A DNA stretch of 64,000 bases from an uncultured Prevotellaceae bacterium (GTDB lineage: Bacteria; Bacteroidota; Bacteroidia; Bacteroidales; Bacteroidaceae). This document shows, one piece after another, positions 7,948 to 14,006 of this stretch. Numbering within the stretch: position 1 is the first letter of the stretch; every line of letters starts with the position of its first letter. The position numbers were made by a program, and so were the translations under genes. Location of the stretch: contig CADAKX010000001.1 in assembly GCA_902788605.1 (NCBI GenBank), forward strand, positions 62,001 through 126,000, in the 5' to 3' direction. The notes under the pieces are model-generated. The model ran no database searches, was not told the DNA's origin, and worked only from the letters and a program-made list of their open reading frames with translations.

Positions 7948-7988
7948 AAAAAAGAATAGCCGCTGATTATTCAGTGGCTATTCTTTTT
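7948..7988. terminator. Bidirectional hairpin terminator that embeds a stop codon
   Basis: A near-perfect stem of about 19 bp (left arm AAGAATAGCCGCTGA, right arm TCAGTGGCTATTCTT, with one G-T pair) around the loop TTAT is flanked by A and T runs, so it can stop transcription in both directions. It lies between the convergent amidohydrolase gene and the TonB-domain gene. The last codons and the TGA of the latter (stop at 7971-7973) lie inside the hairpin. Confidence 0.85.
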
Positions 7989-8474
7989 AGGGTCAATCAC
8001 GTATTGAAAAGAATCCGTTTTATTATTATCCAGTTTAAAATTTATGGGAATCGTATATTTGATTCTCTTCAACTCCGTTTTGCCTTTACTCATCAGCCCA
8101 CCAGGCTTCCACCTTGGCATGGACTTGACAATACGCACTGCCTCATTATTCAGTAAGGAGTCAACGGGTTTCACCACCTTGACATCCGAAATGCTGCCAT
8201 CAGTCTCAATAATAAAGCGAACGATTACGCGACCCTGTATGCCTTTGTTCTTTGCTTCTAGGGGATATCTTAAATTCTTCTTAATATAGTCAAACAAAGC
8301 TGCATCTCCACCAGGGTATTGAGGCATAATCTCACCATAGTCACCATCCCATATCTTAGCACTCACAGAGTCTTGAGCACTATTCTTTGTAGGCGTGTTC
8401 TGGGCATTTGCTGACGGCAAGCACATCAGCAACATCATTAATAGTACAAATAGATTTTGATGTTTCATATTCAT
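7971..8474 (-). CDS. Secreted TonB C-terminal-domain protein (copy A)
   Basis: This 167-aa protein has a signal peptide ending ...LPSANAQ and one TonB C-terminal domain (about residues 50-155). The domain shows the family pattern MPQYPGGDAALFDYIKKNL, RYPLEAKNKGIQGRVIVRF, SDVKVVKPVDSLLNNEAVR and MPRWKPG. It lacks the N-terminal membrane anchor and long periplasmic linker of a true TonB, so it is likely a periplasmic TonB-like protein of unknown role, not an energiser. A related gene lies at 9641-10471. The two share an almost identical 110-bp upstream region and point away from the regulator gene between them. An ATG at 8468 is an alternative start. Confidence 0.8.
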   Translation of the reverse strand: MNMKHQNLFVLLMMLLMCLPSANAQNTPTKNSAQDSVSAKIWDGDYGEIMPQYPGGDAALFDYIKKNLRYPLEAKNKGIQGRVIVRFIIETDGSISDVKVVKPVDSLLNNEAVRIVKSMPRWKPGGLMSKGKTELKRIKYTIPINFKLDNNKTDSFQYVIDPKKNSH

Positions 8475-8500
8475 TTAGGTTTTAGTTATTAACCATGCTG

Positions 8501-8532
8501 CAAAGGTAAACGTTTTGTGCCTTCCCTCCAAA
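8501..8532 (-). promoter_or_regulatory. Promoter of TonB-domain gene copy A
   Basis: On the minus strand TTTG (plus 8529-8532) and TACCTTTG (plus 8501-8508) are separated by 20 nt. The surrounding bases, GGAGGGAA and GCACAAAACGTTTACCTTTG, are almost the same as at 9578-9609. Confidence 0.75.
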
Positions 8533-8545
8533 TATCTAAGGAGAA

Positions 8546-8589
8546 ATGATTAAACAACAAGTAAACAGCTAGTAAACAGATACTTAACA
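8546..8589 (-). promoter_or_regulatory. Operator A: four 11-bp TGTTTA direct repeats
   Basis: On the minus strand four consecutive 11-nt units read TGTTAAGTATC, TGTTTACTAGC, TGTTTACTTGT and TGTTTAATCAT. The first is degenerate. The period of 11 places each core on the same face of the helix. The array ends 13 bp upstream of the -33 box, a usual place for an activator. The same array occurs at 9521-9564. No known factor is assigned; the nearby TPR-HTH protein is the obvious candidate by position. Confidence 0.7.
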
Positions 8590-8628
8590 AAAAACACAAC
8601 CAACTTATTATCAATCACTTGATTCAAT

Positions 8629-9441
8629 CTATAACTCTTGTATCAATTGATCAAATTCCTGGGGTTTACCTATCACATGAAACACATTACTCAATAACTG
8701 CTTGCGACGCGAATACAAATTCTGAAGTGTGATGTCCAGGAATACAGCAATCTCAGAAGGTGAGAAACGCAGACGGATGAGCATGCAGATACGATAATCG
8801 GCATCCTTCATACTGTGACTCGGGTCAACCTTCTTTCTGAAATCAGGCAAATACTCATCAACCATCGCTTCAAGAGAAGTCCAGTCTTCCTTTCTGATAC
8901 TTTGTTGAGGATGTTTGCTCAAATCCTTGAAACGGAGATAGGCTTCCGTCTCCGTCATCTTTTCATAGACAGACGTCTCCTCTGGCATGACTTCTTGTGG
9001 CAAGTCTACTTCAACCTTTTCAGCCTTTTTCCTCCTCAGCAACAACATGGCACCAACACACAAGACAACGAATCCACCAATCAGAAGCCAAAGATAAAGG
9101 TGTGAAGCCCCAGAAGACTGTTCTTTCAGCAAACTAGCTTGACGATGTACTCTGGCAAGCAAACGTTGGTCGCAATCGGCAGCAGTGGTGTCAGCGCTTG
9201 CTACAGCCTTTTGAAGTTCTTCTAGAGCCTGAGGTATCTCGTTCATATCGACATAGGTTCGAGCCAGAATATAGTGGGCCAGCATGCGCTCGTTGGGCGT
9301 GCCTCGTCCATCGAAATAGTCACAAAGACCGATGGCCAACGTATCATTGGTCATCAGACTGTCTTCCTGATTCTGTTGGTCTTTGCAGCCCAGTAGGACA
9401 AGACAAAGGAATATGCCGATTATGGTAAGCAATTTATGCAC
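8629..9441 (-). CDS. TPR-helix-turn-helix membrane regulator (short form, lipobox)
   Basis: The protein starts with a lipoprotein-like signal (IIGIFLCLVLLGC), followed by about two TPR-like helices (RMLAHYILARTYVDMNEIPQALEELQKA), a transmembrane segment near residues 115-137 and a cytoplasmic part ending in a LuxR-like helix-turn-helix (RFSPSEIAVFLDITLQNLYSRRKQLL). This matches the Bacteroidales TPR-TM-HTH regulator type, but those are usually about twice as long, with many TPRs; here most of the sensor is missing. I place the start at the GTG at 9441, because the -7 box at 9446-9453 lies inside the longer open frame that begins at 9483. It lies between two TonB-domain genes. Confidence 0.75.
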   Translation of the reverse strand: MHKLLTIIGIFLCLVLLGCKDQQNQEDSLMTNDTLAIGLCDYFDGRGTPNERMLAHYILARTYVDMNEIPQALEELQKAVASADTTAADCDQRLLARVHRQASLLKEQSSGASHLYLWLLIGGFVVLCVGAMLLLRRKKAEKVEVDLPQEVMPEETSVYEKMTETEAYLRFKDLSKHPQQSIRKEDWTSLEAMVDEYLPDFRKKVDPSHSMKDADYRICMLIRLRFSPSEIAVFLDITLQNLYSRRKQLLSNVFHVIGKPQEFDQLIQEL

Positions 9442-9445
9442 GGTG

Positions 9446-9477
9446 CAAAGGTAAGCAAAAAATCCGACATACTCAAT
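9446..9477 (-). promoter_or_regulatory. Promoter of the TPR-HTH regulator, nearly leaderless
   Basis: On the minus strand TACCTTTG lies at plus 9446-9453, with ATTG (near-consensus -33) at plus 9474-9477 after 20 nt. The predicted transcript starts at about 9440, essentially at the GTG codon at 9441. Operator B lies 44 bp or more further upstream. Confidence 0.55.
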
Positions 9478-9520
9478 AATCATTTCGTTTTTTATTGTTT
9501 TTTATGCCGACAGAAACCCT

Positions 9521-9564
9521 TGTTTATTGCTTGTTTACCCGCTGTTTACTTGTTGTTTAATCAT
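9521..9564 (+). promoter_or_regulatory. Operator B: four 11-bp TGTTTA direct repeats
   Basis: Four consecutive units read TGTTTATTGCT, TGTTTACCCGC, TGTTTACTTGT and TGTTTAATCAT. Every unit starts TGTTTA and the period is exactly 11 bp. The last two units are identical to those of operator A. The array ends 13 bp before the -33 box of the TonB-domain gene at 9641 and also sits upstream of the divergent regulator promoter, so it could serve both. Confidence 0.75.
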
Positions 9565-9577
9565 TTCATCCTAATTA

Positions 9578-9609
9578 TTTGGAGGGAAAGCACAAAACGT
9601 TTACCTTTG
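9578..9609 (+). promoter_or_regulatory. Promoter of TonB-domain gene copy B
   Basis: TTTG at 9578-9581 and TACCTTTG at 9602-9609 are 20 nt apart, followed by GCAG. The leader to the ATG at 9641 is about 26 nt. Confidence 0.75.
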
Positions 9610-9640
9610 CAGCGTGATTAATAACTAAAAGCCCAAAACA

Positions 9641-10471
9641 ATGAAAACAAGAATGAAAACGATGTTGATGAGTCTGCTGATATGCTCAGTTTGTTGTGCT
9701 CAGCATATCAAGCCGAGACCATCTTTTCCTGGAGGGTATAAAGCCTTGCAGGAATTCATAGAGAAAGAAAAGAAATACCCCGATGAAGCCTTAAAGAAAA
9801 GAGAGGAAGGAGCAGTTTACGTTGTTTTTACCGTCGACACACTTGGTAATGTAGTTCATCCCAAGGTCGCTACCAGTGTCTCACCCTCGTTAGACAGAGA
9901 GGCACTACGCATCGTTAGCAAAATGCCGAAATGGATACCCTCAAGGGAAGGGGGCAAAAATATCAACATGGATTTCACCCTAATCATCAGGTTCAGCGCA
10001 CCACCATTACCACTAGATCCTGAAGAACATGTAATTAGGATGATATGTAACGATCTTCCAAAGGAGCTAGAGCCACCAGTTGACCCCTTCAAGATTTACG
10101 ATGTTGTTGACACCATGCCGTCTTTCCAGGGCGACCTGATGACCTATTTATACAATGAAACGCGTTATCCCGCTATTGCAGAAGGGACGGGTGCAGAAGG
10201 GCGTGCTGTCGTAAGGTTTGTCGTAGAGAGAGACGGCTCTATCAGCCACATCAAGATAGTCAGATCATTGGTCTCTAAATCTGCCATTCCCATCATAGAC
10301 AGCATGACTGCCGAATATCGCTTGAAAGCCGAGGCACACAACAAAGCACTTCAGGCCATGGACGATGAAGCCGTCCGCGTCATCAAAGCCATGCCTAAAT
10401 GGAAACCAGGCAAACAACACGGCGAAAATGTTCGCGTTTGGTATATGCTCGCCATTTCTTTTTTGCATTAG
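9641..10471 (+). CDS. Secreted protein with two TonB C-terminal domains (copy B)
   Basis: This 276-aa protein has a signal peptide (ending ...VCCAQ) and two TonB-C-like domains. The first (about residues 25-118) has PSFPGGYKALQEFIEKEKKYP and MPKWIPS. The second (about 150-276) has MPSFQGDLMTYLYNETRYP, GAEGRAVVRFVVERDGSI and MPKWKPGKQ. The second domain carries an extra stretch of about 30 residues (from SKSAIPIIDS to KALQAM) between the VVRS strand and the usual D-EAVRVIKAMP helix. There is no membrane anchor. Expression is probably shared with the gene at 7971-8474 through the duplicated control region. The function is unknown; a periplasmic binding or adaptor role is inference. Confidence 0.8.
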   Translation: MKTRMKTMLMSLLICSVCCAQHIKPRPSFPGGYKALQEFIEKEKKYPDEALKKREEGAVYVVFTVDTLGNVVHPKVATSVSPSLDREALRIVSKMPKWIPSREGGKNINMDFTLIIRFSAPPLPLDPEEHVIRMICNDLPKELEPPVDPFKIYDVVDTMPSFQGDLMTYLYNETRYPAIAEGTGAEGRAVVRFVVERDGSISHIKIVRSLVSKSAIPIIDSMTAEYRLKAEAHNKALQAMDDEAVRVIKAMPKWKPGKQHGENVRVWYMLAISFLH

Positions 10472-12781: not shown

Positions 12782-13420
12782 CTATTCTTCGTTGCTCAGG
12801 GCAATCTCCACCTGTCGAGCTGTGTGTTCACCACGCCTGCGAATCTCTTGTATAATCGATTCGAAGTCGTCCTGGAGACTGCTTTTGGTTTCGTTTTCAG
12901 CCATCACCTGCATCAGGGCCTGTTGTTCTTGCTCAAAAAGGGCTCTTGCCATGAGCTCTGTATCATCAATCTGTGGCTCAGGCGTCTTTTCTACCGTCTC
13001 TGCCTTTGCCATGTAGTGCCTGGGCGGACGAGGCATTCTGTATTTCTCTTTCATCAGTTTCAGCGTATCAACCACCTCGATGGTCTTCGCCTTCTGCAAA
13101 GGGCGTTCCTTCACGGTGCTGGCCTTGGGTGCTGTTTTGACGCTATCCGTCTGTGCCATGAGGATAGGCTCCCCATCCTGCTGAGGGATGAGATGTATGC
13201 CCACAGAAAGCAAGAGGACGATGCTGGCAGCAACGGCTCCTATGGAGACGTAGGTCCACAATCGGCGGCGCTTGGACTGCGGAGCGACCTCAGAGGCCTG
13301 TATGCGTGACATCAGACTGTCGGCAAAGTCGGCCGAGGGCGTCAGCTTTTCAGCAGCCTCATTTCTGTGCTGCAGGGCCTGTCGGAGGCCTTTGTCTCTA
13401 TGGAGTTCATCTTTCTTCAT
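12782..13420 (-). CDS. Membrane anti-sigma factor-like protein
   Basis: The 212-aa protein has a cytoplasmic N-terminal part of about 70 residues, one membrane segment (WTYVSIGAVAASIVLLLSVG) and a periplasmic tail of about 120 residues rich in charged residues and Gln. That is the architecture of an anti-sigma factor. I chose the ATG at 13420 because it overlaps the end of the sigma gene by 14 nt, a usual arrangement for translational coupling. The open frame extends upstream, but only inside the sigma gene. No classic zinc-binding anti-sigma motif is visible, so the assignment rests mainly on position and layout. Confidence 0.7.
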   Translation of the reverse strand: MKKDELHRDKGLRQALQHRNEAAEKLTPSADFADSLMSRIQASEVAPQSKRRRLWTYVSIGAVAASIVLLLSVGIHLIPQQDGEPILMAQTDSVKTAPKASTVKERPLQKAKTIEVVDTLKLMKEKYRMPRPPRHYMAKAETVEKTPEPQIDDTELMARALFEQEQQALMQVMAENETKSSLQDDFESIIQEIRRRGEHTARQVEIALSNEE

Positions 13421-14006
13421 TGCTTTCAAGGGTTTTGATGATAATAGCCAGTTTCTTTCGTATCCATTGCAACCGCGAGTAGAGATAGGGCTCGTCATGG
13501 CTGGTGATGACGGCGATGTCCCTGACGGGCCGGTTGTCGAAGTAATAGAGGTTGAGCAGCATCTGGTCGTCGGGCTTCAACTGGTCGATGGCCTTCTCCA
13601 TGAGTGCCACGCGATGGGCGGTAGTATCATCGAGCAGGGCGTCGGCCTCAGCATCAGGAATGGCATCAAGCCATTGTTGTTCCACATCGATGGTGGCAAT
13701 ATGCTTTCGGCGCTGCCTGTAGTGCTTCAATGCCGTATGGTAGGCAATGCTCAGGAGCCAAGTTTGAAAACTGGCCTTTTGCGCATCATAGCGGGCAAGA
13801 CTTTGGTAGGCTTCGAACAGAACATCCTGTGTGACCTCCTCTGCTTCTTCTGGCGAAGGAATCAGTCGAGCCACCATCCGCAACACCTGTCCGGCATATC
13901 GGCCAGCAAGTTGGCGGAAGAGCGCTGTCTGTCCGTCAAGGATGCGACGTATGAGGAGCGTCTCATCCCGTAAGGCTACGGCTGAAGTGACTGTTTCTTT
14001 TTCCAT
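13407..14006 (-). CDS. ECF-family RNA polymerase sigma factor
   Basis: This 199-aa protein has sigma region 2 (ALFRQLAGRYAGQVLRMVARL, then EEAEEVTQDVLFEAYQSL and FQTWLLSIAYHTALKHYRQ) and a region 4 helix-turn-helix (LKPDDQMLLNLYYFDNRPVRDIA). It lacks regions 1 and 3, as expected for the extracytoplasmic-function class. It is the first gene of a three-gene unit with the anti-sigma-like gene and a secreted protein. ECF units often control their own promoter; I see no standard -7 box just upstream, which would fit self-regulation but does not prove it. Confidence 0.92.
   Translation of the reverse strand: MEKETVTSAVALRDETLLIRRILDGQTALFRQLAGRYAGQVLRMVARLIPSPEEAEEVTQDVLFEAYQSLARYDAQKASFQTWLLSIAYHTALKHYRQRRKHIATIDVEQQWLDAIPDAEADALLDDTTAHRVALMEKAIDQLKPDDQMLLNLYYFDNRPVRDIAVITSHDEPYLYSRLQWIRKKLAIIIKTLESNEER

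Follow-up and report, generated by a model that had tools for sequence, protein, structure and literature searches.

Two arrays of four head-to-tail 11-bp TGTTTA units, each standing before the promoter of a TonB-domain gene, are probably (at about 80%, judged from sequence comparison) the operators of a membrane-anchored one-component regulator encoded between them. They lie in a stretch of 64,000 nucleotides from an uncultured Prevotellaceae bacterium, hereafter the window, whose own genome is designated G000. Binding of the arrays by this regulator is well supported, though unproven, and the window system is one of many paralogous regulator-repeat pairs. With a slight lean in its favour, it can further be proposed that in Prevotella and neighbouring genera a large membrane-anchored protein family reads helix-phased head-to-tail repeats, and that paralog-specific words before paired genes, often for secreted proteins, form a decodable code with dozens of insulated lines in one genus. 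The features concerned are as follows:

7971-8474, minus strand: gene for a 167-aa protein with a TonB_C domain and a signal-peptide-like start, standing where family members usually have their target gene
8480-8590, minus strand: promoter-array block A, inverted relative to block B
8501-8532, minus strand: promoter A, with -33 TTTG at 8529-8532 and -7 box TACCTTTG at 8501-8508
8589-8546, minus strand: array A, TGTTAAGTATC TGTTTACTAGC TGTTTACTTGT TGTTTAATCAT, one TGTTAA and three TGTTTA units upstream of the 167-aa gene
8629-9441, minus strand: regulator gene, 270 aa from a GTG, with the frame open from an ATG at 9483
9446-9453, minus strand: likely -7 box TACCTTTG of the regulator gene, from the sequence
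9520-9630, plus strand: promoter-array block B, inverted relative to block A
9521-9564, plus strand: array B, TGTTTATTGCT TGTTTACCCGC TGTTTACTTGT TGTTTAATCAT, four 11-bp TGTTTA units upstream of the 276-aa gene
9578-9609, plus strand: promoter B, with -33 TTTG at 9578-9581 and -7 box TACCTTTG at 9602-9609
9641-10471, plus strand: gene for a 276-aa TonB_C-domain protein (domain search) with more than one TonB_C stretch and a signal-peptide-like start

The boxes of these promoters were assigned according to the Bacteroidota promoter consensus (-33 TTTG and -7), and by subtraction of positions the two boxes are 20 bp apart in both A and B. As described in the first-pass annotation, the TGTTTA direct repeats have an exact 11-bp period with four units per array, unit 1 of array A being degenerate (TGTTAA); the coordinates give a gap of 13 bp between array and -33 box on both sides, and the final two units (TGTTTACTTGT TGTTTAATCAT) are the same in A and B. 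From the end of the last hexamer to the -7 box there are 42 bp. When three units were searched with up to three mismatches, four matches were obtained in the window against 0.02 expected from shuffles, all of them overlapping matches of arrays A and B, and the same four were the only ones in the whole 3.26 Mb genome at up to two mismatches (reversed control, 0). Besides the arrays, G000 has two exact two-unit sites, neither of which lies 40-46 bp before a -7 box. Blocks A and B form a 111-bp inverted duplication with 86% identity, so that the likeness of the two arrays is partly a matter of descent and does not amount to two independent observations, and the agreement of the last two units is weak evidence when taken alone. 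Independent evidence for the arrays comes from sequence comparison with relatives. Regarding the presumed targets, a TonB_C domain is present in both proteins, and no proline-rich spacer was seen by eye in either. Near the locus, window positions 12782-14006 hold an ECF sigma factor gene and an overlapping ORF with a weak match to an anti-sigma model, below the cut-off.

The regulator displays a lipobox-like LLGC start, a TPR-like part, a TM helix and a C-terminal HTH. No Pfam or NCBIfam match was obtained for the 270-aa protein at E 0.001, the TPR-like stretch reaching Pfam TPR_2 at E 0.065, and the TM helix (LWLLIGGFVVLCVGAMLLL at residue 117, hydropathy 2.66) is predicted by hydropathy only; membrane topology and lipidation are likewise predicted. 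No match was found in plasmids and no convincing one in the PDB. In its N-terminal part (residues about 22-105) and its C-terminal TM-HTH part (about 152-269) the window regulator resembles what is called here the TPR-TM-HTH family, and the middle part of the long members (about 500-680 aa) is missing from it; it is thus a shortened member of this family. A profile of 26 C-terminal parts, compared with a PDB set, finds RcsB, NarL, VraR and FixJ weakly (E 0.03-1.4); its best match is an archaeal regulator at E 8e-4, and designed TIM barrels match the same profile at E 0.003-0.02, so this level is noisy. The HTH of the family is thus likely to be LuxR-like, though not proven to be so. The likely -7 box of the regulator gene ends 4 bp before the GTG at 9441; the message may be leaderless, or the start codon may lie elsewhere.

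Close relatives of the regulator (E <= 1e-35) occur in three of 398 congeneric genomes, namely G000 itself, G265 (83% identity to the window protein) and G112 (58%). Arrays are present in both of the latter. In G265, four-unit arrays precede the TonB-domain gene adjacent to the regulator and also a TonB2 ortholog 5.7 kb away. In G112, a genome that is 71% complete, three exact units precede a gene for a 223-aa protein with a TonB_C-like C-terminus and a different start, on a contig other than that of the regulator, which does not adjoin the array. Between G000 and G265, all 48 hexamer positions are unchanged, the degenerate TGTTAA included, as against 25 of 40 spacer positions (hexamer versus spacer, Fisher p 1.3e-6). 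The regulator-adjacent TonB-domain gene of G265 (L067, 9877-11106) encodes a 409-aa protein which starts like the window 167-aa protein and over most of its length matches the 276-aa one (77%), giving it a chimera-like appearance.

Two units placed 40-46 bp before TAnnTTTG are found in seven of the 398 genomes (reversed control, one genome). Such promoter-placed sites are present in all three regulator-carrying genomes (5 sites) versus 4 of the 395 others, and the chance of finding three out of three among 7/398 is by arithmetic about 3e-6, although the three genomes are not independent. As only three genomes carry the protein, the co-occurrence of protein and sites is partly shared descent. 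In all three, promoter-placed sites lie before a TonB-domain gene, some of them distant from the regulator; besides the arrays, G265 has no exact two-unit site and G112 has one, not placed before a -7 box. The site of G073 precedes an operon whose second gene encodes another member of the TPR-TM-HTH family, that of G055 carries a TGTTTACGCA-type word, and no family gene was found within the 6-8.5 kb fetched around the sites of G024 and G261.

In the search of the genome and its relatives for three-unit arrays, proposed in the earlier annotation, the arrays of the regulator-carrying genomes precede TonB-domain genes, and 36 of the 299 genus genomes carry other TGTTTA arrays at up to one mismatch. 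Among the 31 loci of such arrays examined (L008-L036, L070, L071), no ORF was related to the window's proteins (blastp, E <= 1e-4), and of the 28 arrays meeting the criteria of the script none was followed by a -7 box at 40-46 bp from its last hexamer, the distance being 16, 27 or 51 bp in five of them; a second array of G261, on another contig, does show the 40-46 bp placement. The near-miss arrays with one mismatch in G132 and G137 (L011, 1501-1533; L012, 1496-1528) have a -7 box 16 and 27 bp further on and are possibly operators of another regulator; they indicate that TGTTTA arrays can stand at promoters without a window-type protein. Other repeats of the genus look like mobile-element repeats rather than operators of the window kind. 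These are the 11-bp TGTTTACGCA-type repeats of G184, G178, G179 and G044 (L020, L021 and L029 near 1496-1539, L022 near 1496-1528), with CTTCAGACTAT words nearby, and the TGTTTACCCA repeats directly before an integrase-looking gene, as identified by eye, in G060 (L027, 1501-1552).

Matches to the family at E <= 1e-15 can be found in 87 of 299 genus genomes, with up to at least 8 family genes per genome among the matches listed (8 candidates scored). Among these listed matches, which usually lie in frames of 500-700 aa, most cover about residues 20-105 and others about 150-269. Six members were scanned and showed no Pfam family beyond single TPR-type or weak matches; an internal TM-like stretch is present in 109 of 113 family proteins, and a lipobox-like motif, by a loose pattern, within the first 70 residues in 83 of the 113. 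From 86 family ORFs, three were dropped as shorter than 450 aa or duplicates. The next ORF after the remaining 83 long members lies on the same strand in 76 cases and on the opposite strand in 4, with none within the stretch in 3; the same-strand ORF starts within 320 bp in 65 cases, with a product of 100-140 aa in 44 of the 65. Signal-peptide-like starts were seen by eye in many of the 100-140-aa products. The window regulator conforms to this layout, with the same-strand 167-aa gene behind it and array A before the promoter of that gene.

Downstream promoters with a -7 box (TAnnTTTG) in the gap were scored for a direct repeat at lag 9-12, a score of at least 6 being required, and compared with 80 control promoters from the window and the fetched loci, those with TGTTTA pairs excluded; for lack of a usable TAnnTTTG in the gap, 12 of the 83 genes, and 13 of 30 in a second set, were left out. 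Repeats were present in 61 of 71 family downstream promoters, most of the first 24 genes having been inspected by eye before scoring, versus 23 of 80 controls and 26% of Markov shuffles; the fractions scoring at least 8 were 0.535, 0.088 and 0.059, respectively (family versus control scores, Mann-Whitney p 2.2e-14). Ten of the 71 promoters score below 6 and are exceptions to the rule. Lag 11 is dominant (36/71 vs 7/80 controls), followed by lag 10 (20/71 vs 12/80), the remaining lags from 5 to 25 accounting for at most 7/71 each, and by hand count 40 of the 61 repeats end 36-43 bp before the -7 box. For the Prevotella loci fetched after the idea had been formed, 40 of 49 reach score 6 versus 25% of shuffles, and 25 of 49 pass a score of 7 with a position filter versus 3.6%. 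The second set, mostly from other genera together with three G000 paralogs and two other congeners, gave 15 of 17 versus 27%, or 5 of 17 versus 3.7% with the position filter. Weak matches outside the family, some in frames of about 950-1030 aa, indicate general HTH kinship only, and of the loci from that search outside G000 only L183 and L205 entered the analysis. With each 45% identity cluster of the 113 proteins reduced to a single gene, 42 of 50 have a repeat versus 26% of shuffles. The promoters preceding the family genes themselves are at background (9/44).

A three-unit repeat scan of the gaps was tried as a diagnostic and rejected: at every period (10, 11, 12, 21, 22) it gave an excess over shuffles (19-39 counts near family genes vs 4-5), the gaps being rich in repeats of many kinds. 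It pointed to the repeated promoters of G145; two-unit repeats were then recognised when the gaps were inspected by eye, and these were the repeats scored with controls and later loci. In G145 (L074, 5572-16200), three near-identical family genes stand in a row, each followed by a TGTTACATTT repeat promoter, and a fourth copy of this promoter precedes the first gene; different secreted-looking proteins follow, several of which end in DLQGRR...GIYI or alike, so that the whole is an amplified cassette. G009 offers a parallel to the window: behind a family gene stand four 11-bp GTGTACTATTG-type units, and a TonB_C gene comes next. The G000 paralog on contig C16 (L239, gap after 1863) is followed by GTTCAC and, further on, GTGAAC direct repeats, which thus lie on both arms of an inverted repeat.

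The repeat words vary between members and include GGAAATT, GTAAAAT, GTGTACT, TGTTAC, TTGTCAAG, TGTAAAC, TGCAAA, TGTGAAC and others. Their relation to the putative recognition helix was examined by a Mantel test on the 55 clearest cases (repeats scoring at least 7 and ending 25-50 bp before the -7 box). Recognition segments that are at least 80% alike have a mean word similarity of 0.95 (14 pairs, several of them near-duplicate loci), as against 0.49 for segments less than 20% alike (441 pairs). The correlation with the helix is weak overall (rho 0.22), and the remainder of the protein gives 0.17; both values have p 0.002, which is the floor of 500 permutations. Since a correlation exists outside the helix as well, the effects of ancestry and of specificity are not neatly distinguished. 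L072, L106 and L107 have YLSKRRK and GGAAA words in common. In the three orthologs, whose whole proteins are 58-83% identical to the window's, the recognition segment DITLQNLYSRRKQLL is identical and the TGTTTA word is common. TGTTTA words are also found beside other helices in L152 and G073 (6 and 8 of 24 positions like the window's), which disfavours a one-to-one code. The designation of the protein between the arrays as their likely binder, made in the first-pass annotation, can thus be upheld from sequence: the co-occurrence, the family-wide link to repeats and the identical DITLQNLYSRRKQLL all argue for it.

Other origins of the arrays can be considered. Their word and spacing equal the PhoP box of enterobacteria, TGTTTAW-N4-TGTTTAW, in which TGTTTA hexamers likewise stand head to tail with an 11-bp period (extract of PMC2322996), and an OmpR/PhoB-type response regulator might bind them as PhoP binds TGTTTA-N5-TGTTTA; three Trans_reg_C matches were obtained in G000, including a fragment at the end of a contig. 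The window differs from the PhoP system in having four units, the last hexamer at 42 bp from the -7 box, and an adjacent regulator in which scans of the family libraries found neither a receiver nor a Trans_reg_C match. None of the three Trans_reg_C matches of G000 is on the window's contig, and such matches occur in all six genomes searched, among them G163, G132 and G117, which have no promoter-placed two-unit sites. The few extra exact two-unit sites (two in G000, one in G112, none in G265), none before a -7 box, are unlike the pattern of a global regulator. On this absence of a wider site set, and with Trans_reg_C also present where the sites are absent, a global OmpR-type regulator was rejected, and an OmpR/PhoB-type binder in general is unlikely. 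The claim that no Bacteroidales factor with such a site has been described needs the addition that the same word and spacing are known outside Bacteroidales.

It is quite improbable that a different, non-local member of the TPR-TM-HTH family binds the arrays, even though G000 encodes three or more further members whose HTHs are related and some distant members (L152, G073) adjoin TGTTTA words: it is the local protein that co-occurs with the sites in three genomes, and the C16 paralog adjoins GTTCAC/GTGAAC repeats of its own. The arrays could also be a passive by-product left by promoter duplication and by slippage at tandem repeats, as the 86% inverted duplication of the window promoters, the 11-bp TGTTTACGCA-type repeats elsewhere in the genus and the richness of family-gene gaps in repeats at every period tried might suggest. 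However, the spacers drift while the hexamers stay (G000 vs G265), in G112 the array is found again before another TonB_C gene with its distance to the -7 box kept, and the family shows the same design with other words; on hexamer conservation and the kept -7 distance, a passive repeat was rejected and is very improbable.

If the arrays are operators of the local regulator, the lipidated TPR-like part at its N-terminus would be periplasmic, with one TM helix crossing the inner membrane and the cytoplasmic C-terminal HTH binding TGTTTA(C) half-sites that follow each other head to tail at one per turn of the DNA. Several membrane-held protomers would thereby be aligned along a single DNA face immediately before the -33 box, where they could recruit or stabilise RNA polymerase and so activate transcription. 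We infer activation from the position of the array only; it would fit better than repression, since the core promoter that follows the array is intact. Target A, the gene immediately behind the regulator, would represent the standard family layout, and target B would be a duplicated promoter on the other side. As a guess, an envelope signal would suit the lipidation and the periplasmic TPR-like part, and the TonB_C targets would fit envelope transport.

With respect to known systems, weak similarity of the family HTH profile to RcsB, NarL, VraR and FixJ recalls the LuxR/NarL-type HTH proteins, from which the window family differs in its predicted membrane anchoring and its direct repeats, at E-values of only 0.03-1.4. 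Inverted sites are usual for the LuxR/NarL class. Among three small neighbour proteins tested, one resembles the DUF3244 proteins of Bacteroidota below the cut-off (E 0.0034) and the other two have no match; in the window, by contrast, the targets are TonB_C proteins. TTRs have been described as a class in which Bacteroidota are rich (extract of PMC10269533), and those of the ToxR type are likewise one-component proteins with an outer sensory part, a TM helix and a cytoplasmic DNA-binding domain. The internal TM helix between outer and DNA-binding domains that marks a TTR is found in the window regulator, by hydropathy only. One of the titles cited in PMC10269533 states that a direct repeat element is recognised by ToxR. 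Unlike ToxR, which has a winged helix (extract of PMC6733452), the window family has a C-terminal HTH of LuxR-like appearance, together with a lipobox-like start, a TPR-like outer part and a paralog-specific repeat by the paired gene. The words TPR and LuxR are absent from the available portion of PMC10269533, and no description of the TPR-TM-HTH family or its repeats was found in the open-access literature covered, which consisted mostly of titles and abstract beginnings and included PMC10269533, PMC10434189 and PMC2322996.

The window system is rated here as a variant of the transmembrane one-component regulators, and the general rule that underlies it is notable. With an operator visible beside the paired gene, the targets of the family would be predictable from sequence, and the dozens of natural protein-DNA pairs could allow a recognition code to be learned. 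The repeat promoters would be candidate orthogonal promoters for Bacteroidota, and the pairing would give a regulatory context to poorly known small secreted proteins and to the TonB_C proteins of the window.
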